Assembly (NCBI RefSeq): GCF_011759705.1
Contig: NZ_JAAOZF010000002.1
Span: 496,001 to 560,000, forward strand
Origin: Microbacterium ulmi
GTDB taxonomy: Bacteria; Actinomycetota; Actinomycetes; Actinomycetales; Microbacteriaceae
DNA length: 64,000 bases
Direction of reading: 5' to 3'
This document shows, one piece after another, positions 7,419 through 37,597 of the stretch. Every line of letters begins with the position of its first letter. The first letter of the stretch is position 1. Below the pieces are notes generated by a model. The model had not been told where the DNA came from and searched no databases. It saw only the letters and a list, made by a program, of their open reading frames with translations. The translations under genes and the position numbers were made by a program.

Positions 7419-8849
7419 CTACTCCTTGTCGGCGGCGGCCTTCTTCTTGGAGGGCGCGCGCTTCTTCGCCGCGGGCTTCTCCTCCGCCTCGATGATCTCA
7501 TCGGCGTCGGCTGCGGCATCCGCGATGTCCTGCGCCTCTTCGACGACCTCGTCCTCGGCTGCGACCTCGTCCTCGATCGCGACGAAGCCGGCGAGATCGA
7601 CGGGGTTGCCGTTCGTGTCGACGACCGACACCTTGCCGAGGGCCACCGCGAGGGCCTTGTTGCGGGCGACCTCGCCGATGAGCGCCGGCAGCTGGTTGTT
7701 CTGCTGCAGCGTGTCGACGAACTCCTGCGGCGCCATGCCGTACTGCGCGGCGGACTGGATGAGGTACTGCGTGAGCTCGTCCTGCGAGACCTGGACGTCG
7801 AACTTCTCCGCGATCGCGTCCAGGAGAAGCTGCGTGCGGAACTGCTTCTCGCTCGCCTCCGTCACCTCCGCACGGTGCACGTCGTCCTCGAGGCGGCCCT
7901 CGGACTCGAGGTGGTTGTGCACCTCGTCCTCGATGACGCCCGTCGGAACGGGGATCTCGACCTCTGCGAGCAGCTTCTCGACGAGCTTGTCGCGCGCCGC
8001 GGAGCCCTGCGTGAAGACGGACTGCTCCGAGACGCGCTCCTTGAGGCTGTCGCGCAGTTCGGCGATCGTGTCGAACTCGCTCGCGATCTGCGCGAAGTCG
8101 TCGTCGGCCTCGGGGAGCTCGCGCTCCTTGACGGCCTTGACCGTGACGGAGACCTCCGCCTCCTCGCCGGCGTGATCGCCGCCGACGAGCTTCGAGCGGA
8201 ACGTCGTGTCCTCACCGGCGGTGAGCGAGTCGATGGCGTCGTCGATGCCCTCGAGGAGCTCCCCCGAGCCGACCTCGTACGACACGGCCTCGGCGCGGTC
8301 GATCTCGGCGCCGTCGATCGTCGCGACGAGGTCGAGCTCGACGAAGTCGCCCGACGCCGCGGGACGGTCGACCGTGATGAGAGTGCCGAAGCGACCGCGC
8401 AGGCGGTCGAGCTCCTCGTCGATCGACGCGTCGTCCGCCTCGACGGCGTCGACCTCGACGGTCGTGCCCTCGAAGGCCGGCAGTACGAACTCGGGGCGGA
8501 CGTCGACCTCGATCTCGACCTTGAGGTCGCCCGAGAAGTCCTTCTCCGCCGGCCACTCCTTGACGTCGGCGCTGGGGCGGCCCATGACGCGGATGCCGTG
8601 CTCCTCCACCGCGTCGCGGTAGAAGCGGTCGAGGCCGTCGCTGACGGCGTGCTCGAGCACCGCGGTGCGGCCGATGCGCTGGTCGATGATGGGGGCGGGG
8701 ACCTTGCCCTTGCGGAAGCCGGGGACCTGGACGTCCTGCGCGATGTGCTCGTAGGCGTGCGCGATGCTCGGCTTGAGGTCCTCGGGGGTGACCGTGATGT
8801 TCAGCTTCACCCGGGTGGGGCTGAGCTTCTCGACGGTGCTGTTGACCAT
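7419..8849 (-). CDS. tig: trigger factor, ribosome-associated chaperone/peptidyl-prolyl isomerase
   Basis: A 476-aa trigger factor that binds nascent chains at the ribosomal exit tunnel. The N-terminal ribosome-binding domain carries the signature GFRKGKVP (residues about 44-51, family signature GFRxGxxP), followed by an FKBP-type isomerase domain (about 160-245) and a helical C-terminal chaperone domain. The last 60 residues are a low-complexity acidic stretch ending in a lysine-rich tail, common in actinobacterial homologues. GAGGAG lies upstream of the ATG. It begins the minus-strand proteostasis block. Confidence 0.97.
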
Positions 8850-8915: not shown

Positions 8916-8950
8916 GTCGGGGCGACAGGATGTGAACCTGCGGCCTCCCG
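8916..8950 (-). repeat. displaced tRNA-Pro 3' fragment (att-like repeat)
   Basis: Thirty-three of 35 bases match positions 13914-13948, the 3' end of the intact tRNA-Pro gene from the 3' strand of the anticodon stem through the T-arm and acceptor strand. The differences fall at 8932 (T-loop) and 8943 (variable loop). The CCA end is not kept. Bases further in (8951-8989) no longer match the tRNA. It is the expected outer attachment-site remnant of an element inserted in tRNA-Pro. Confidence 0.75.
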
Positions 8951-9189
8951 TGGCCACCGAGCCATTGCCGGGTGGCCCCGGCTGCCCCGGAATGTCTTGG
9001 GTTTCCTTGTGTCAGCAGGGAATACGGCGACGGCCGAACATAGAGTCTATCGGAACATCTGCGATCGCCTGCGGTCGATAGGGGTGGGCTGCCGATGACC
9101 GCCGGTCAGGCGTGGGTCGTGCCGAGCCCCGTGGCTTGTGGAGGATGATGAGCCGACCGTATGCGACCGAGGATCGAGTGGCGCAGGTA

Positions 9190-9220
9190 GATGGCCCTCG
9201 CCGGATTGGCGAGGGCCATC
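9190..9220 (-). terminator. hairpin after the DUF4389-type gene
   Basis: Thirteen-base perfect stem (GATGGCCCTCGCC) with a five-base loop, starting about 20 bases beyond the stop of the minus-strand membrane-protein gene. No T-run. Probably terminates that gene. Confidence 0.7.
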
Positions 9221-9238
9221 GTTCCGATAGACCGTCTT

Positions 9239-10084
9239 CTACTTCTCGAGTGCGCCTGGGTCGAGGCGGAAGGGCGGGTACTCGTCGCGCATGAGCGCCG
9301 TGTACGCGAAGACCCGGTACATCCAGCGGTGTGCGCCCATGATCAGGTTGAACAGTCCGAGCCGGTAGACGCCGGTGAACAGCAGGATGATCGCCGCGAG
9401 GAGGAGGAGCAGCCCGAGCAGGGAGAGCGTCTCGCCGTGGCCGCCGGTCCACGCGGCCCAGGTGCCGCCGGTGACGAGAGCGACGATCACAAGGTGCGGG
9501 AGCGCGAACAGCCACGACTTGAACAGCACCTTCCAGCGTGAGAGCGCGGTCGGGTACTCGACCTCGAAGGTGGCGGGATAGTCGGTGCGCGCAAGCGTGA
9601 AGGGCGGGTACTTGTCGCTGCCGAGCACGCCGTTGGCGTAGAACGCGACGCGCCAGTTCCAACGGAGCACTCCGTTGGTGAACTGGAACAGCCGAGCCGG
9701 GTAGCGGCCGGTGAACAGGATCGCGAACCCGGCAGCGACGGTCACGACGACGAACGCGATCCAGAGGATGGCCAGCACGACGAAGTGCGGGATGGCGAGC
9801 AGCCACTTCACGAGCCACATCCAGCGCGTCAGCTTCGGGTCGAGCACGCCCTCGACGCTCACCTTGCGGGCTGCCGGGGGCGCTCCGCCGATGGATCCGC
9901 CGAGGCCCGTCGCACCGACGATGATCAGCGCGACCCCGACGAGCACGGCGGCGATCGTGATGAGTGGAGACAAGTCGTACGCAAGCGCCGTCGGTGCGGC
10001 GGCGCCGGTGAGCACGCCGGCGACGAGCGCGAGCATGTGTCGGGCGTTCATCCTGTGCGGCGTTGGGGACGTGATGGTGGTCAT
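9239..10084 (-). CDS. DUF4389-type multi-pass membrane protein
   Basis: A 281-aa integral membrane protein with five or six hydrophobic segments. Two similar blocks are visible (near residues 125-165 and 235-275): each has an aromatic-rich RLFQFTNGVLRWNWRV or RLGLFNLIMGAHRWMYRV stretch and ends in a YPPF motif, the signature of DUF4389 proteins. Function of the family is unknown. The ATG at 10084 opens with a threonine-rich N-terminus and has weak upstream purines. It lies on the tRNA-Pro island and ends at a clear hairpin. About 55 bases separate it from the oxidoreductase upstream, so it may be the last gene of that operon. Confidence 0.8.
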   Translation of the reverse strand: MTTITSPTPHRMNARHMLALVAGVLTGAAAPTALAYDLSPLITIAAVLVGVALIIVGATGLGGSIGGAPPAARKVSVEGVLDPKLTRWMWLVKWLLAIPHFVVLAILWIAFVVVTVAAGFAILFTGRYPARLFQFTNGVLRWNWRVAFYANGVLGSDKYPPFTLARTDYPATFEVEYPTALSRWKVLFKSWLFALPHLVIVALVTGGTWAAWTGGHGETLSLLGLLLLLAAIILLFTGVYRLGLFNLIMGAHRWMYRVFAYTALMRDEYPPFRLDPGALEK

Positions 10085-10140
10085 GATGTGGTGTTCCTTC
10101 GGTTGGGTGCTGCAGTTCGACGGCCGGTTGGCGGGCGAGG

Positions 10141-11109
10141 TCAGACGGAGATCGCGACTTTGCCGGAGGCGTGCTCGTCGACGAAGTACTCGACCGCAGC
10201 CGGCACCTCGGCGAGCGGGAAGGTGCGGTCGATCGCTGGCGTGACGTGCCCCGCCTCCAGCAGCTCGCGCAGCTCATCCAAGACCTGGGTGGTGCCGTGC
10301 TGCGAGAAGAGGCTGAGCGTCTGACCGACGAACGGTGACATCGCGACGGCGCTCATGATGCGTCCCATCGGTCCGAACACCGGATGCCCGGTGCCGCTGG
10401 AGAGCACGAGCGTGCCCTTCGGGGTCAGCACCGATCGGAGCCGGCCGAGCGAGTGGTTGCCGATCAGGTCGAGGATGACGTCGTACCGGGCGGTGTCCAG
10501 CGTGAAGTCGTCCCGGGCGTAGTCGATCGCGCGGTCTGCGCCGAGTCCGCGCACGAGCTGCGCGTTCCGGGAGCTCGCGACGGCGGTGACCTCGGCACCC
10601 AGCGCCTTGGCGATCTGCACGGCGAACGTGCCCACTCCGCCGGAGGCGCCGTTGATCAGCACCCGCTGTCCAGGAGTGACTGCCCCGGCGTCGCGGAGGC
10701 CGAGGTACGCGGTCATGCCCGCAAGAGGAATGGTGGCCGCCTGCTCGAAGGTGAGGATCGCGGGCTTGCGCGCGATCTTCGCGACCGGCGCGGCCACGAA
10801 TTCCGCGAAGGTGCCGGATTCGAGTTCGCCGTACACCTCGTCGCCGACCTTGAAGGCGGTGACACCAGACCCGACGGCTTCGATGACTCCGGCGACATCC
10901 TTCCCGCGCACCGGTGTCTTCGGCGTCCTCAGCCCGAAGGCGAGGCGGGAGATGCTCGGCCGGCCGGAGATATAGACCCAGTCGGCGTGGTTGATGCTCG
11001 CAGCCCGAACGCGGACCAGCACCTCGCCGTCACCGATCGTAGGGCTCTCGGTCTCCTCCAGCCGCAGCACGCTGGCGTCGCCGTAGGCGCGCTGGACGAT
11101 GGCCTTCAT
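10141..11109 (-). CDS. NADP-dependent alcohol dehydrogenase/quinone oxidoreductase (zinc-free MDR)
   Basis: A 322-aa medium-chain dehydrogenase/reductase of the quinone oxidoreductase type. The GroES-like domain covers residues 1-120 and the Rossmann domain has the NADPH motif INGASGGVGTFAVQ near residue 145. The zinc-ligand cysteines of true alcohol dehydrogenases are missing, as is normal for this subgroup. Substrate unknown. Its ATG overlaps the SDR stop by four bases (ATGA), so the two reductases are translated together, and both are probably repressed by the divergent TetR protein. Confidence 0.88.
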   Translation of the reverse strand: MKAIVQRAYGDASVLRLEETESPTIGDGEVLVRVRAASINHADWVYISGRPSISRLAFGLRTPKTPVRGKDVAGVIEAVGSGVTAFKVGDEVYGELESGTFAEFVAAPVAKIARKPAILTFEQAATIPLAGMTAYLGLRDAGAVTPGQRVLINGASGGVGTFAVQIAKALGAEVTAVASSRNAQLVRGLGADRAIDYARDDFTLDTARYDVILDLIGNHSLGRLRSVLTPKGTLVLSSGTGHPVFGPMGRIMSAVAMSPFVGQTLSLFSQHGTTQVLDELRELLEAGHVTPAIDRTFPLAEVPAAVEYFVDEHASGKVAISV

Positions 11110-12035
11110 CGGGTGCTCGCCATCTGGACCGCCGGGTAGGGCACGCCGGTGAGTTCCTCCGACACCGCCCACAGGCGGGCGGCGATGAGCGGGTCGGCTG
11201 CGGCATCCGAGCGGCCCACCAGGACCGGCGCTCCTGCCATCTCGCGCTTGTTGGCCGGTCCGGCGTAGCTGCCACCGGGGATCTCGGCGGTGGCGGCGAA
11301 CAACGTCGGCAACGCGCCGGCTGCCGCATCCTGGGCGAACAGGCGCACGACCACCGTGGCGAAGACGGTCATGATCGCGCTCTCGGAGCTCGACATGAGG
11401 TTGGTCGAAGCCATGCCCGGATGAGCCGCCGTCGAGAGGACGGAGGATCCGGATGCCGTCAGCCGGCGCTGCAGCTCGAGCGAGAACAGCAGGTTCGCAA
11501 GCTTCGACTGCTCGTACCCACCGGCGCCCCCGCCGTACTTCCGGGTCGCCCAGTTGAGGTCGTCGAAGTCGATCGTGCCCGAGCGGTGCGCACTGCTCGC
11601 GACCGTGACGACCCGGCTGGTGACGTGCGGGAGCAGGAGGTTGGTGAGGGCGAAGTGACCGAGGTGGTTGATGCCGAACTGCAGTTCGAATCCATCCTTC
11701 GTGTACCCGAGCGGCGGGACCATCACCCCGGCGTTGTTCACCAGCACGCGGATGTCGCCGGTCCAACCGGCGGCGAAGGCACGCACCCAGCCCAGGTCGG
11801 CGAGGTCGAGATGGCGCACCTCGGTGGATCCACCGATGCCGGCCGCCGCATCCTCACCCTTGTGAACGTCGCGCACGGCGAGCACGACGTGCGCACCCTT
11901 CGCGGCGAACACCCGGGCCGCTTCAAGCCCGATGCCGCTGTTGCCGCCGGTCACGACGATCGTCGCGCCGTCGAGTTCGGGCATGCGGTCGATCGTCCAG
12001 TCGGGGACTGCGTCGTGCGTCCGGTTGCCGTTCAT
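11106..12035 (-). CDS. short-chain dehydrogenase/reductase
   Basis: A 309-aa SDR resembling retinol-dehydrogenase/WW-domain oxidoreductase-like enzymes. The NAD(P) motif VVTGGNSGIG is at about residues 24-33, NNAG at about 100, and the catalytic pair in YEQSKLAN (YxxxK) at about 170. AGGAG lies five bases before the ATG at 12035, which fixes the start. It leads a two- or three-gene operon on the tRNA-Pro island, divergent from tetR with two palindromic operators between them. Substrate unknown; typical of detoxification modules controlled by TetR. Confidence 0.88.
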   Translation of the reverse strand: MNGNRTHDAVPDWTIDRMPELDGATIVVTGGNSGIGLEAARVFAAKGAHVVLAVRDVHKGEDAAAGIGGSTEVRHLDLADLGWVRAFAAGWTGDIRVLVNNAGVMVPPLGYTKDGFELQFGINHLGHFALTNLLLPHVTSRVVTVASSAHRSGTIDFDDLNWATRKYGGGAGGYEQSKLANLLFSLELQRRLTASGSSVLSTAAHPGMASTNLMSSSESAIMTVFATVVVRLFAQDAAAGALPTLFAATAEIPGGSYAGPANKREMAGAPVLVGRSDAAADPLIAARLWAVSEELTGVPYPAVQMASTR

Positions 12036-12052
12036 GGCATCTCCTTGATTCG

Positions 12053-12101
12053 CCCTTACGCTGTAAGGGTGCTGTGGTGAAGCTACCATACGTTGTAAGG
12101 T
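12053..12101. promoter_or_regulatory. paired 17-bp TetR operators between SDR and tetR
   Basis: Two dyads of identical architecture (7-3-7). The first, 12053-12069, is perfect: CCCTTAC-GCT-GTAAGGG. The second, 12085-12101, reads ACCATAC-GTT-GTAAGGT and has one mismatch. Centres are 32 bases apart, about three helical turns, so two dimers could bind the same DNA face and shut off both divergent promoters. Confidence 0.75.
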
Positions 12102-12131
12102 GATGTCTAGCACACCGGAAGGAAGACACGG

Positions 12132-12815
12132 ATGGCTCGCACCGAACGACGGGAACCCGTCACTCGCGATCGCGCCATCGGCGTTGCAATCGCACTGGCC
12201 GACGCGGGCGGACTCGAGTCGTTGAGCATGCGCAAGCTCGCCGCCGAGCTGGGCATCGAGGCGATGTCGCTCTACTACCACGTGAAAGGCAAGAGCGACC
12301 TGCTCGACGGCATGCTCGATGCCGTCTACACGGAGTTCTCGACACCACGGGCCGGGAACGAGTGGCGGCAGGCGATGCAGGATCGCGCCCGCTCGACCCG
12401 TGCGGTGCTGGCGAAGCATCCATGGGCGATCACCATCAAGGCACGTACCTCCCCCGGCCCTGCGACCCTCGGACACCTGGATGCGGTGATCGGCTGCCTG
12501 CGCGCAGCCGGCTTCTCCATGCCCCTGATCGGCCACGCGATGTCGCTGCTCGACAGCTACGTGCAGGGCTTCGCGCAACAAGAGGCCTCCCTGCCATTGG
12601 ACCCCGCAGGCGACATCGCCGCAGCGACCGAGGAGATCATGGCGCAGCAGGCGCACATGGCGGAGACGTTCCCGAACCTCGCCGACATGGCGGCAGAACT
12701 CATCCTGAAGCCGGGCTACGCGTACGGAAACGAGTTCGACTTCGGGCTCGAATTGGTGCTCGACGGCCTCGCCGCCGCCCACGCGGAGGATCACGGCGTC
12801 ACGGTCCGCGACTAG
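12132..12815 (+). CDS. TetR/AcrR-family repressor
   Basis: A 227-aa regulator with an N-terminal TetR HTH (residues about 14-60: VAIALADAGGLESLSMRKLA, then SLYYHVKGK) and a TetR_C-type ligand-binding domain. The HTH resembles tetracycline-repressor-class proteins with the LYYHVKGK signature. Purine stretch GGAAGGA lies about nine bases upstream of the ATG. It is divergent from the SDR-oxidoreductase operon and probably autoregulates through the two 17-bp dyads. It belongs to the tRNA-Pro island. The inducer is unknown. Confidence 0.9.
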   Translation: MARTERREPVTRDRAIGVAIALADAGGLESLSMRKLAAELGIEAMSLYYHVKGKSDLLDGMLDAVYTEFSTPRAGNEWRQAMQDRARSTRAVLAKHPWAITIKARTSPGPATLGHLDAVIGCLRAAGFSMPLIGHAMSLLDSYVQGFAQQEASLPLDPAGDIAAATEEIMAQQAHMAETFPNLADMAAELILKPGYAYGNEFDFGLELVLDGLAAAHAEDHGVTVRD

Positions 12816-12836
12816 GTTGGGGCCGCGTCCGGGCCT

Positions 12837-13507
12837 CTCATCACGACCGAGCTCCACGTGCCGACGCGGCGCGCGGCGACCATCCCCCGGCCAGAGACGA
12901 CCACTCGACTCAGCACGACCGGCCGACTCATCCTCGTGGCGGCCCCCGCCGGATTCGGCAAAGACGAGCATCCTGACCGAGTGGCCGACTTCCCTCGGGG
13001 ACAGCACAGCCGTCGCCTGCTCTCGCTCGACGAGCGCCCCAGCGAGCCGAGCCAGTTCAGGACAGGACCCACGTGATCACCGCGTTGGACCGGGCTGTGC
13101 CGGAGTCGGGGGCGCTGCGCTCGAGGTCTTGCCGTCCAATCCGCCGTCGACCGAGACGGTCATCGCCACGCTGATCGACGACCTCGATTCCGCTGGAACC
13201 GACGTCGCGCTGGTGCTCGACGACTTCCACGTCATCGAGAACGGCACCATCCACGCCGGGATGTCGTACTTCGTCGAGAACCTTCCCGCCCATGTGCGCC
13301 TGGTCATAGCGAGCCGCGCCGCCCCCGCCGCTTCCGCGAGTCCGACTGCGAACCCGCGGGGAGCTGATCGAACTCCGCGCGGCCGACCTGCGATTCACGC
13401 CGTCCGAGGCATCCGCCTACATGAACGACGTGATGGGGCTCGCGCGCGGCGCGGGTGACGTCGTGGCGGTCGGCGATCGGACCGAGGGATGGATCGTGGC
13501 GACCTAA
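12837..13507 (+). pseudogene. frameshifted remnant of a LuxR/MalT-type ATP-binding regulator
   Basis: Parts of one MalT-like N-terminus are spread over three frames. Frame 3 from 12837 gives LITTELHVPTRRAATIPRP and the Walker A APAGFGK. Frame 1 then gives KTSILTEWPTSLGDSTAVA. Frame 3 returns with LSLDERPSEPSQF. Frame 1 gives VALVLDDFHVIENGTIHAG (Walker B and beyond), and the last part (GELIELRAADLRFTPSEA to EGWIVAT) needs another shift before a stop at 13505. The C-terminal repeats and LuxR DNA-binding domain are gone. At least three frameshifts plus truncation mean it is not functional. It follows tetR directly. Confidence 0.85.
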
Positions 13508-13831
13508 CTCGCGGCACTTTCGATGAAGGGCCGGGATGACCCGAGCGCGGCCCATCGGGTCACCTCCCGCCTGCTCGTGCGCATCGAGTTCCCGCTGCTG
13601 CTCGATCCAGATCCGCACGTCCGATCCCGCGAGCTTCAGGTGCTTGCCGAAGCGGTGCGCGCGCGGCCCGAGGCCGCGGGTGCGCCAGTCGTAGACCATC
13701 GAGACCGGCACGCCGAGGTACGCAGCCAGCTCGCCCACGTCGAGCAGCGGCTCCAGCCCCCACGGGTTCGATGCGGTGTCGGCGTCCATACCGAACAGGT
13801 ACGACGGCACCTCCGGGGCAACGTGAGACAT
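13304..13831 (-). CDS. excisionase/AlpA-like helix-turn-helix protein, C-terminus doubtful
   Basis: The reading frame gives 175 aa. Residues about 30-78 are a MerR/excisionase-type winged helix: LLDVGELAAYLGVPVSMVYD, RTRGLGPRAHRFGKHLKL and DVRIWIEQQ, like small phage or plasmid excisionases and helix_turn_helix-17 proteins. Residues beyond about 108 are read antisense to the LuxR/MalT remnant and look non-native, so the gene has probably lost its own end and reads on into neighbouring DNA. The start at 13831 is the first ATG; it lacks a good ribosome site. Its place just inside the tRNA-Pro 3' end is where excisionase genes of integrative elements usually sit. Confidence 0.5.
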   Translation of the reverse strand: MSHVAPEVPSYLFGMDADTASNPWGLEPLLDVGELAAYLGVPVSMVYDWRTRGLGPRAHRFGKHLKLAGSDVRIWIEQQRELDAHEQAGGDPMGRARVIPALHRKCRELGRHDPSLGPIADRHDVTRAAREPHHVVHVGGCLGRRESQVGRAEFDQLPAGSQSDSRKRRGRRGSL

Positions 13832-13914
13832 CCGGAGAAGACACGGCGCTGCCGGAGCGCCTGGCCGCGGATGTGGCCCGGCGGCAGCCATTGAGATACT
13901 GCGGGCGAAACTGG

Positions 13915-13988
13915 TCGGGGCGACAGGATTTGAACCTGCGACCTCCCGCTCCCAAAGCGGGCGCTCTACCAAGCTGAGCTACGCCCCG
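13915..13988 (-). tRNA. tRNA-Pro(UGG)
   Basis: Full cloverleaf on the minus strand: acceptor CGGGGCG pairs with CGCCCCG, D-arm AGCTCAG, anticodon loop TTTGGGA with anticodon TGG, T-arm GCAGG-TTCAAAT-CCTGT, discriminator A. CCA is encoded at 13914-13912. It forms the right border of the probable island. Confidence 0.97.
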
Positions 13989-14226: not shown

Positions 14227-14297
14227 GGGGATGTAGCTCAATGGTAGAGCCTCAGTCTTCCAAACTGATGGTGCGGGTTCGATTCCCGTCATCCCCT
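14227..14297 (+). tRNA. tRNA-Gly(UCC)
   Basis: Acceptor GGGGATG pairs with CATCCCC, anticodon stem TCAGT/ACTGA closes loop CTTCCAA (anticodon TCC), T-arm GCGGG-TTCGATT-CCCGT, discriminator T, and encoded CCA at 14298-14300. The 238-base space to tRNA-Pro holds nothing recognisable. Confidence 0.97.
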
Positions 14298-14333
14298 CCA
14301 ATTGGTGAAGACGTCGGCCGCCGGGTCGTGCGC

Positions 14334-35926: not shown

Positions 35927-37597
35927 ATGCCCCCTGCACCCACCACCCGCACGACCGACGTGCTCGTCATCGGGTGGGGCCTGGCCGGCCTGGTCGCCGC
36001 GAGCGAGGCCGTCGCCGCGGGCAGACGCGTCGTCATCGTCGACCAGGAGCCCCGGACCAATCTCGGCGGTCAGGCGTGGTGGTCGTTCGGCGGGCTGTTC
36101 TTCGTCGACTCGCCCGAGCAGCGCAGGTTCGGCATCAAGGACTCGCTCGAGCTCGCGCGCCAGGACTGGTTCGGCACGGCCGGCTTCGATCGCGACGAGG
36201 ACGCCTGGCCTCGCCGGTGGGCAGAGGCATACGTGAACTTCGCTCACGGCGAGAAGCGGGCGTGGCTGCGCGAGAAGGGCGTCGGCTTCTTCCCCGTCGT
36301 CGGCTGGGCCGAGCGGGGCGGCTACACCGCGACGGGTCCTGGCAACTCCGTGCCGCGCTTCCACATCACGTGGGGCACCGGTCCCGGGCTCGTCGCGCCG
36401 TTCCAGGCGGCGGTCGAGGAGGGTGAGGCCCGCGGCCGTCTCACGATCCTGCAGCGACACCGCGTCACGGCCCTCACGACAGCCGACGGCGCCGTCACGG
36501 GCGCGACAGGGGACATCCTCGCGCCGTCCGGCACGGCACGCGGCTATGCGACCACTCGCGAGGTGGTCGGCTCGTTCGAGATCACGGCGGGCGCGACGAT
36601 CGTCTCGTCCGGCGGCATCGGCGGCAACCACGACCTGGTCCGCACGCGCTGGCCCGAGCGTCTCGGCACACCTCCCGAGACGATGGTCACGGGCGTCCCC
36701 GCCTACGTGGACGGCTCGATGCTCGCCGTCACGGAGCATGCGGGAGCGCGGCTCATCAACGGCGACCGCATGTGGCACTACGTGGAAGGCATCCAGAACT
36801 GGGATCCGGTCTGGCCGGGGCACGGCATCCGGATCCTCCCGGGGCCATCGTCCGTGTGGCTCGACGCGACGGGTGCGCGTCTTCCCGTTCCCCTCTTTCC
36901 GGGCTTCGACACCCTCGGTACGCTCGCGCACCTGCGGAGCACCGGGCACGACCATTCGTGGTTCGTCCTCTCGCAGCAGATCATCGAGAAGGAGTTCACG
37001 CTCTCGGGAAGCGAGCAGAACCCCGATCTCACGGGCAGGGACCTGCCGCTCCTCATCACGTCGCGACTGGGCAGGGGCGCAGCGGGACCCGTGCAGGCGT
37101 TCATGGACGAGGGCGCCGACTTCGTCGTGCGCGACAGCCTCGACGACCTCGTCGCCGGGATGCGCGCACTCCCGGGCGGCGATGCCCTCGACCCCGAGCT
37201 CGTCCGGTATGAGCTCGAGGCGCGCGATCGCGAAATCGACAACGACTTCACGAAGGACGCGCAGATCGCGATGCTGCGCTCCGCGCGCGCCTACCGCGGC
37301 GACAGGCTCATCCGCACGGCGACGCCGCACCGCATCCTCGATCCGGCGGCCGGACCCCTCATCGCTGTGAAGCTGCACATCCTGACCCGCAAGTCGCTCG
37401 GCGGCATCGAGACCGACCTCTCCGCGCGGGCCCTCGCCCCTGGCGGCATCCCCGTTCCCGGTCTCTACGCGGCCGGCGAGGCGAGCGGATTCGGGGGCGG
37501 CGGCGTGCACGGGTATCGCGCCCTCGAGGGCACGTTCCTGGGGGGATGCCTCTTCTCGGGCCGTACGGCGGGTCGCGCTGCTGCCGCCTCGGTCTGA
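35927..37597 (+). CDS. FAD-binding dehydrogenase (KstD/fumarate-reductase-like)
   Basis: A 556-aa flavoprotein. The dinucleotide motif VIGWGLAGLVAASEA is at residues about 14-28, with the family's GGQAWWSFGGLF after the FAD site, and the C-terminal FAD segment GEASGFGGGGVHGYRALEG near 520. It belongs to the FAD_binding_2 group of predicted steroid-dehydrogenase-like enzymes; the true substrate is unknown and no steroid genes are nearby. GAAGGAG lies six bases before the ATG. It may be co-transcribed with mscS and the globin gene. Confidence 0.88.
   Translation: MPPAPTTRTTDVLVIGWGLAGLVAASEAVAAGRRVVIVDQEPRTNLGGQAWWSFGGLFFVDSPEQRRFGIKDSLELARQDWFGTAGFDRDEDAWPRRWAEAYVNFAHGEKRAWLREKGVGFFPVVGWAERGGYTATGPGNSVPRFHITWGTGPGLVAPFQAAVEEGEARGRLTILQRHRVTALTTADGAVTGATGDILAPSGTARGYATTREVVGSFEITAGATIVSSGGIGGNHDLVRTRWPERLGTPPETMVTGVPAYVDGSMLAVTEHAGARLINGDRMWHYVEGIQNWDPVWPGHGIRILPGPSSVWLDATGARLPVPLFPGFDTLGTLAHLRSTGHDHSWFVLSQQIIEKEFTLSGSEQNPDLTGRDLPLLITSRLGRGAAGPVQAFMDEGADFVVRDSLDDLVAGMRALPGGDALDPELVRYELEARDREIDNDFTKDAQIAMLRSARAYRGDRLIRTATPHRILDPAAGPLIAVKLHILTRKSLGGIETDLSARALAPGGIPVPGLYAAGEASGFGGGGVHGYRALEGTFLGGCLFSGRTAGRAAAASV

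Follow-up and report, generated by a model that had tools for sequence, protein, structure and literature searches.

In a stretch of 64,000 nucleotides from Microbacterium ulmi (hereafter the window), the 3' end of a tRNA-Pro gene lies apart from the intact gene, and the question raised by this locus is how the two came to be separated. The gene at 7419-8849 (minus strand) is one we take to be tig, encoding trigger factor, the neighbour of tRNA-Pro in the genus. Close to it, at 8916-8950 (minus strand), is the displaced 3' fragment, a putative far attachment site. ARAGORN placed the intact tRNA-Pro(UGG), with its CCA encoded, at 13912-13988 (minus strand), and tRNA-Gly(UCC), the outer neighbour found in most relatives too, at 14227-14300 (plus strand). 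The intact gene has kept the usual 5' flank and promoter, like those of relatives, and its 3' flank is foreign. An earlier note, made from the sequence alone, had described the fragment as part of the tRNA-Pro 3' half, and a comparison with the whole genome found it again, with 33 of 35 positions (94%) identical to the 3' part of tRNA-Pro(UGG) and in the same orientation (E = 1.1e-8); the mismatches were a T-loop change from A to C and one more. The remaining genomic matches to this tRNA all lay in, or overlapped, called tRNA genes (Pro CGG, Pro GGG, Ile/Ala and Met). On the tig side, the fragment is flanked by GTCACGGCCCCACAGACC, which is the flank of tRNA-Pro in genomes with an empty site (L032, L051 and L069), indicating that the match goes beyond chance. 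An intact tRNA together with a displaced 3' fragment is the direct repeat by which Islander recognizes a tRNA-targeted island, and the principle of a regenerated target and a displaced fragment is set out in the available part of its description (Hudson et al., PMC4383910).

The uninterrupted site, another of the Islander criteria, was found in relatives. The tig gene was searched in 58 genomes and homologues were obtained in 57. In 31 of 33 other loci read in the same genus, the tRNA-Pro 3' end and the start codon of tig are 60-90 nt apart, in agreement with the earlier proposal that the original place of tRNA-Pro was beside tig. The two exceptions were G007, where the distance is 10.1 kb, and G003, where the contig ends after 6.4 kb and the best tRNA-Pro(UGG) match is truncated and on a different contig. 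In seven genomes from other families of the order, the distance was 0.1-6.5 kb, and the orientation was opposite in one. The compared relatives lack the 5 kb found in the window, and the sequence inward of the fragment bears no significant resemblance to the 5' half of the tRNA, which speaks against a diverged full tRNA gene; both results are as the proposed insertion would have it. The CCA is encoded at all 3 of the occupied sites whose tRNA is complete and at 5 of the 31 empty ones, which is no more than suggestive.

Among the loci examined in the genus, four tig-linked sites were occupied (the window, G242, G003 and G007), and the cargo was different at each, a check that the earlier note had called for. 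In G242, tig is followed by the same variant fragment, 1.3 kb of cargo with an HxlR regulator and a luciferase-domain protein, and the intact tRNA-Pro and tRNA-Gly. The fragment is also present in G003, where the cargo is unrelated (TetR, ABC transporter and FMN dehydrogenase) and the island is left incomplete by the contig end. The cargo of G007, of about 10 kb, comprises AsnC and GntR regulators, a thiamine-pyrophosphate enzyme, an aldehyde dehydrogenase, a glutamine-synthetase-like protein, an SDR and an amino-acid permease. Its displaced core is just 7-8 bp long and, although a TANNNT box is present, no arm was seen by eye; therefore, this island may have another history. A quick tree of tig grouped the window with G003 (support 94) and placed G242 and G007 in other clades, the latter among relatives with an empty site. 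Between the window and G242, identity was 84% across the opening 300 nt of tig, 64% for the spacer between tig and the fragment, 85% over 8951-9094, and 36% beyond.

The conserved segment next to the fragment would be the far end of an element (8951-9097, minus strand), common to the islands of the window, G242 and G003. It contains an imperfect palindrome, TTCCCTGCTGACACAAGGAA, at 9003-9022 (minus strand), a candidate arm-type site for an integrase, and a promoter-like TAGACT box facing tig at 9044-9049 (minus strand), inside a block at 9028-9054. This block, TCCGATAGACN{6,10}GGCCGTCG, occurs in 3 of the 366 genus genomes, once in each (the window, G242 and G007), and G003 carries an altered copy. 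When 8951-9110 was compared with the far ends of complete elements in tRNA-Pro(GGG) genes, the scores were 66 for G122 and 44 for G355, and none of 1000 shuffles scored as high; the shuffle means were 19-21, and the maximum of 328 control stretches was 34. Marginal scores were obtained for the tig-linked island of G007 (41, with 1 of 1000 shuffles as high), G097 (40, with 1), G329 (36, with 0) and G028 (36, with 3), and the score of 30 for Sediminivirga luteola L117 (10 of 1000 shuffles as high) was inside the control range. A palindrome like TTCCCTGTAAACACAAGGGAA is found just inside the core in G028, G329, G122, G355, G097 and L117. A TANNNT box with variable middle bases, probably a -10 box, precedes the arm by 27 nt in 9 of 9 sequences (28 in G242, where the arm match starts one base later), a count taken over related sequences rather than independent draws and leaving out G007. 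The window thus has the palindromic arm and the box at fixed spacing that mark the family, and its far end is shared with other islands and resembles that of complete elements, clearly for two and marginally for others.

At the opposite end, the gene adjoining the tRNA 3' end is excisionase-like, as the earlier note had it. This xis (HTH_17; 13553-13789, minus strand) was assigned by homology and extends to the start of the integrase, in a frame open to 13304; it reached 26.1 bits against TIGR01764, below the cut-off of 28.8. Relatives of xis (E up to 1e-6) were found in 76 of the 366 genus genomes, counting that of the window, and their gene order agrees with the assignment: among the best 29 loci outside the window, tRNA-Pro(GGG) lies upstream in the same orientation in 15, an integrase or a piece of one begins some 230-300 nt past the start of xis in 24, and the order tRNA-Pro(GGG)-xis-integrase is seen in 13. 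Three of the remainder had no integrase in view, one of them being cut just after xis, and in two the sole integrase lay on the opposite side. In the longest cases, the window aligns to these xis-integrase modules from 13803 to 13541-13548, a span covering the ribosome-binding site and ATG of the integrase, and the alignment ends there; 13804-13911 did not align to the modules, which we count against the explanation preferred below. What survives of the integrase is its start (13541-13555, minus strand), comprising the ATG (13555-13553) and roughly four codons, and the rest is missing. Since the alignment passes through the ribosome-binding site and ATG and then stops, the integrase gene was once present and has been lost from about codon 5 on, with a breakpoint at 13541-13547. 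The lack of an integrase reported earlier was borne out by the searches: PF00589 matched six places in the genome and none within the window, and a profile built from integrases of the genus, run against all six frames, found none in the window island, G007, G242 and the available part of G003, while the positive control, G122, was recovered at 7.5e-212, its own integrase being in the profile. The island therefore lacks an encoded integrase, which Islander asks for, and the integrase that follows xis directly in the family is gone here after about 5 codons. Having lost its integrase, the island is not expected to be able to move on its own.

Stretches were fetched for 11 genomes with the tRNA-Pro(GGG) site. 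Five of them yielded a displaced core, at 15.3 kb (G028), 16.3 kb (G329), 10.6 kb (G122), 9.5 kb (G355) and 9.9 kb (G097), and no far core was found within 40 kb in the other six. G028, G329, G122 and G355 combine an integrase with a displaced core of 31-36 bp, and G097 showed no clear integrase (9 bits in the profile search). These four elements resemble the window in their xis, integrase start, far-end box and arm, and core length. They differ from it in using the GGG gene as site, whereas the window occupies tRNA-Pro(UGG), in having the integrase, in their size of 9.5-16.3 kb and in their cargo; the genus elements with a core also have A in the T-loop, where the window has C. Among the cargo are TetR, an amine oxidase, an amino-acid permease and an aldehyde dehydrogenase in G122, a protein that matches Dsr1 in part (4.1e-46) and another with a partial Aga-type match in G329, and a ThsB-like protein in G097 (1.6e-54). 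G329 also encodes a serine recombinase that matches XisF and CcrB models below their cut-offs, and one G028 protein resembles it by eye. No complete element was found at the UGG site.

Taken together, the island in the window is very probably the remnant of a small element that integrated into tRNA-Pro(UGG) beside tig and has since lost its integrase by deletion. The integrative island of the earlier note was thus largely right, given the empty sites, the shared ends and the xis homology. The alignments show both an island inserted in tRNA-Pro and a xis-integrase end from which the integrase was deleted; the chemistry and the order of events would be as follows. A small integrative element would have entered the 3' half of tRNA-Pro(UGG) through site-specific recombination by a tyrosine recombinase, the tRNA being rebuilt with the 3' end of the element, CCA included, and the old 3' end being stranded next to tig. 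The layout of the family would then be tRNA-Pro, xis, integrase, variable cargo, a far end with the palindromic arm-like site and the promoter-like box, and the displaced tRNA fragment. A later deletion would have removed the integrase from about codon 5 and with it mobility, leaving cargo (TetR, two dehydrogenases and DUF4389), xis and both ends, and some of the cargo may have been replaced.

The same layout might have arisen if the whole tRNA-Pro with its promoter had been duplicated in tandem, the tig-side copy decaying and unrelated genes being inserted between the copies. The relic could be extended to 74 nt, up to a CCGGGGC able to close an acceptor stem, and a TAGACT box of the kind seen in the native tRNA promoter lies upstream of it. 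Against this, the 5' half had no significant similarity to tRNA-Pro in 4 of 4 sequences (the fraction of shuffles as high was 0.10-0.999), Rfam recorded no tRNA at the relic up to E = 5, and the region resembles instead the far ends of complete elements; moreover, the xis and integrase start beside the tRNA would be left unexplained. We consider such a duplication highly improbable. A full-length decayed tRNA was rejected on the same dissimilarity and Rfam result, and on RNA folding that was no better than that of shuffles (z -0.71).

Movement in trans, with a related integrase encoded at another locus, would account for an island without its own enzyme, and the contig that holds the window (C2:496001-560000) does carry a related xis at C2:648741-648920, beside an integrase at about C2:647516-648697. 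The surviving integrase start implies, however, that the gene existed and was lost, and the T-loop difference between the attachment copies could impair excision, so that we hold this route to be very unlikely. The cargo could also be younger than the ends, having arrived by homologous recombination or another route into an older decayed element that contributed the ends only, which is compatible with the preferred explanation as far as the ends are concerned. The four tig-linked islands differ in cargo while sharing the promoter-like block, and the broken frames abut the integrase breakpoint, as a replacement would predict; nevertheless, it requires extra events, and because elements that still bear an integrase differ in cargo too, independent integrations can explain the differences. 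A later arrival of the cargo is a serious possibility, albeit an unlikely one.

Coming back to the remnant of an integrated element, its promoter-like box may now serve tig. We tentatively suggest, with more doubt than conviction, that the family far end is a conserved outward promoter that assumes the transcription of the host gene lying past the tRNA and, at the tig site, displaces the tRNA-Pro promoter normally serving tig; it would hence be kept even as the integrase and cargo disappear or give way to others. If true, a housekeeping gene would have acquired its promoter from the end of a dead mobile element.

The cargo begins beyond the far end with a DUF4389 protein (9239-10084, minus strand; PF14333, 2.3e-16), followed by a zinc-type alcohol dehydrogenase/quinone oxidoreductase-like protein (10141-11109, minus strand; PF13602, 4.9e-24, with all NCBIfam matches under their cut-offs) and a short-chain dehydrogenase of the NF004846 oxidoreductases (11106-12035, minus strand; 322.8 bits, cut-off 268). 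Divergent from the dehydrogenases is a TetR-family regulator (12132-12815, plus strand; PF02909, 7e-21). Broken reading frames with stops occupy 12817-13546 (plus strand) and abut the integrase start; they are putatively LuxR/MalT-like. The oxidoreductase and TetR part of the cargo first described stood, and DUF4389 and HTH_17 were likewise borne out, while the LuxR/MalT remnant found no support in Pfam, even though the frames there are broken. PADLOC returned 0 matches for the three cargo proteins tested, and Pfam revealed neither replication genes nor FtsK/Tra transfer genes among seven window proteins.

The element pSAM2 integrates in tRNA-Pro. In the parts available of two accounts of AICEs, the vast majority of those with tyrosine recombinases are in tRNA 3' ends (PMC3218068, PMC9033027), and pSAM2 and other AICEs described there share with the present family a tyrosine recombinase with xis and a tRNA 3' end as target. 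Unlike them, the window carries no replication or FtsK/Tra genes in its cargo; the integrase-bearing elements were judged by eye in this respect. Like the tRNA-borne islands in the available part of the Islander paper, the island has a regenerated tRNA at one end and a displaced 3' fragment at the other in the same orientation, and it departs from them in that Islander insists on an integrase, deleted here (PMC4383910). The island is thus a decayed tRNA-borne island of an already known type. No description of the element family was found in the open-licence PMC papers covered, and the part available of a study on Microbacterium phages (PMC7302621) had nothing on the tRNA-Pro/tig site. The locus is of value because the stages from an integrase-driven island to a fixed islet are all visible, in the empty sites, the integrase-bearing relatives, the far end held in common and the point at which the integrase was cut off. 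It also points to a small-element family through which the genus receives genes of a catabolic or defence-like kind, and raises the possibility that the end of an element was recruited as the promoter of a core chaperone gene.

A phage origin found no support, as the variant core 20-mer had no match in viral contigs. Relatives of xis were absent from viral contigs and phages, two plasmid records contained them, and a phage search with the tRNA region gave mainly phage tRNA genes among the matches listed. Among named genomes, the 20-mer occurred in 50 stretches, of which 47 were actinobacterial; many were displaced tRNA-Pro(GGG) 3' ends, and two were inside tRNA genes called by ARAGORN (L121 and L146). 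In 394 genomes of the class, a check for any substitution at this T-loop position gave four matches, three with C (one being the window) and one with G. The T-loop change was therefore discarded as a special signature, given these few matches, the called tRNA genes that carry it, and the genus cores that keep A. No integrase was found directly beside the variant core in 13 genomes searched (L132 was left out), although there was a 140-aa remnant at 1.4 kb, a 66-aa piece at 8 kb and a 445-aa gene at 13.7 kb; this says little for long elements, because the family integrase sits at the tRNA end. Motif scans for integrases gave nothing useful. An intact tRNA-Pro lay 1.3-6.4 kb upstream in the same orientation in six of the 50 stretches (L119, L126, L138, L142, L147, which is G242, and L156). 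Between tRNA and core, no integrase was found in L119, L126, L138, L142 and L156 (best E 0.33, a search that divergent integrases could escape), suggesting that integrase-less tRNA-Pro islets are not unique to the window. In L122, the intact tRNA-Pro is 0.18 kb upstream of the core, and most other stretches show no tRNA-Pro at the locus.

At the tig-linked site that holds the island in the window, the relative G007 carried a 10-kb gene set between tig and tRNA-Pro (stretch L052), which comprised AsnC, a TPP enzyme, GntR, an aldehyde dehydrogenase, a glutamine-synthetase-like protein, an SDR and a permease, and the core at this site was only 7-8 bp. The aldehyde dehydrogenase and permease families were also found in the tRNA-Pro(GGG) element of G122. 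In the tig-side region of G025 (L072), tRNA-Pro adjoined tig, and tRNA-Gly was located 3.4 kb away on the opposite strand, a placement that is a second rearrangement of the tig/tRNA-Pro neighbourhood.

A displaced tRNA-Pro 3' end with the T-loop A to C change was recurrent in many Actinobacteria (stretches L111-L160), and several Streptomyces and Pseudonocardia copies had TTGGGGACCA-like direct repeats about 120 nt from it, which are candidate arm-type sites.

The tRNA-Pro elements of the genomes G028 and G329 (L203-L206) contained, besides the integrase, defence-like genes and a serine recombinase of the large type, which in G329 is CcrB/XisF-like; a nested element is possible. In G355 (L221), a separate 40-nt stretch at 367-406 repeats the 5' end of tRNA-Pro(GGG) and stops about 50 nt ahead of the intact gene at 458-534, as though a 5' half had stayed behind. 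ARAGORN also called a tRNA-Arg(gcg) at window positions 36522-36619; at 98 nt it is unusually long, and the prediction could be spurious or intron-like.
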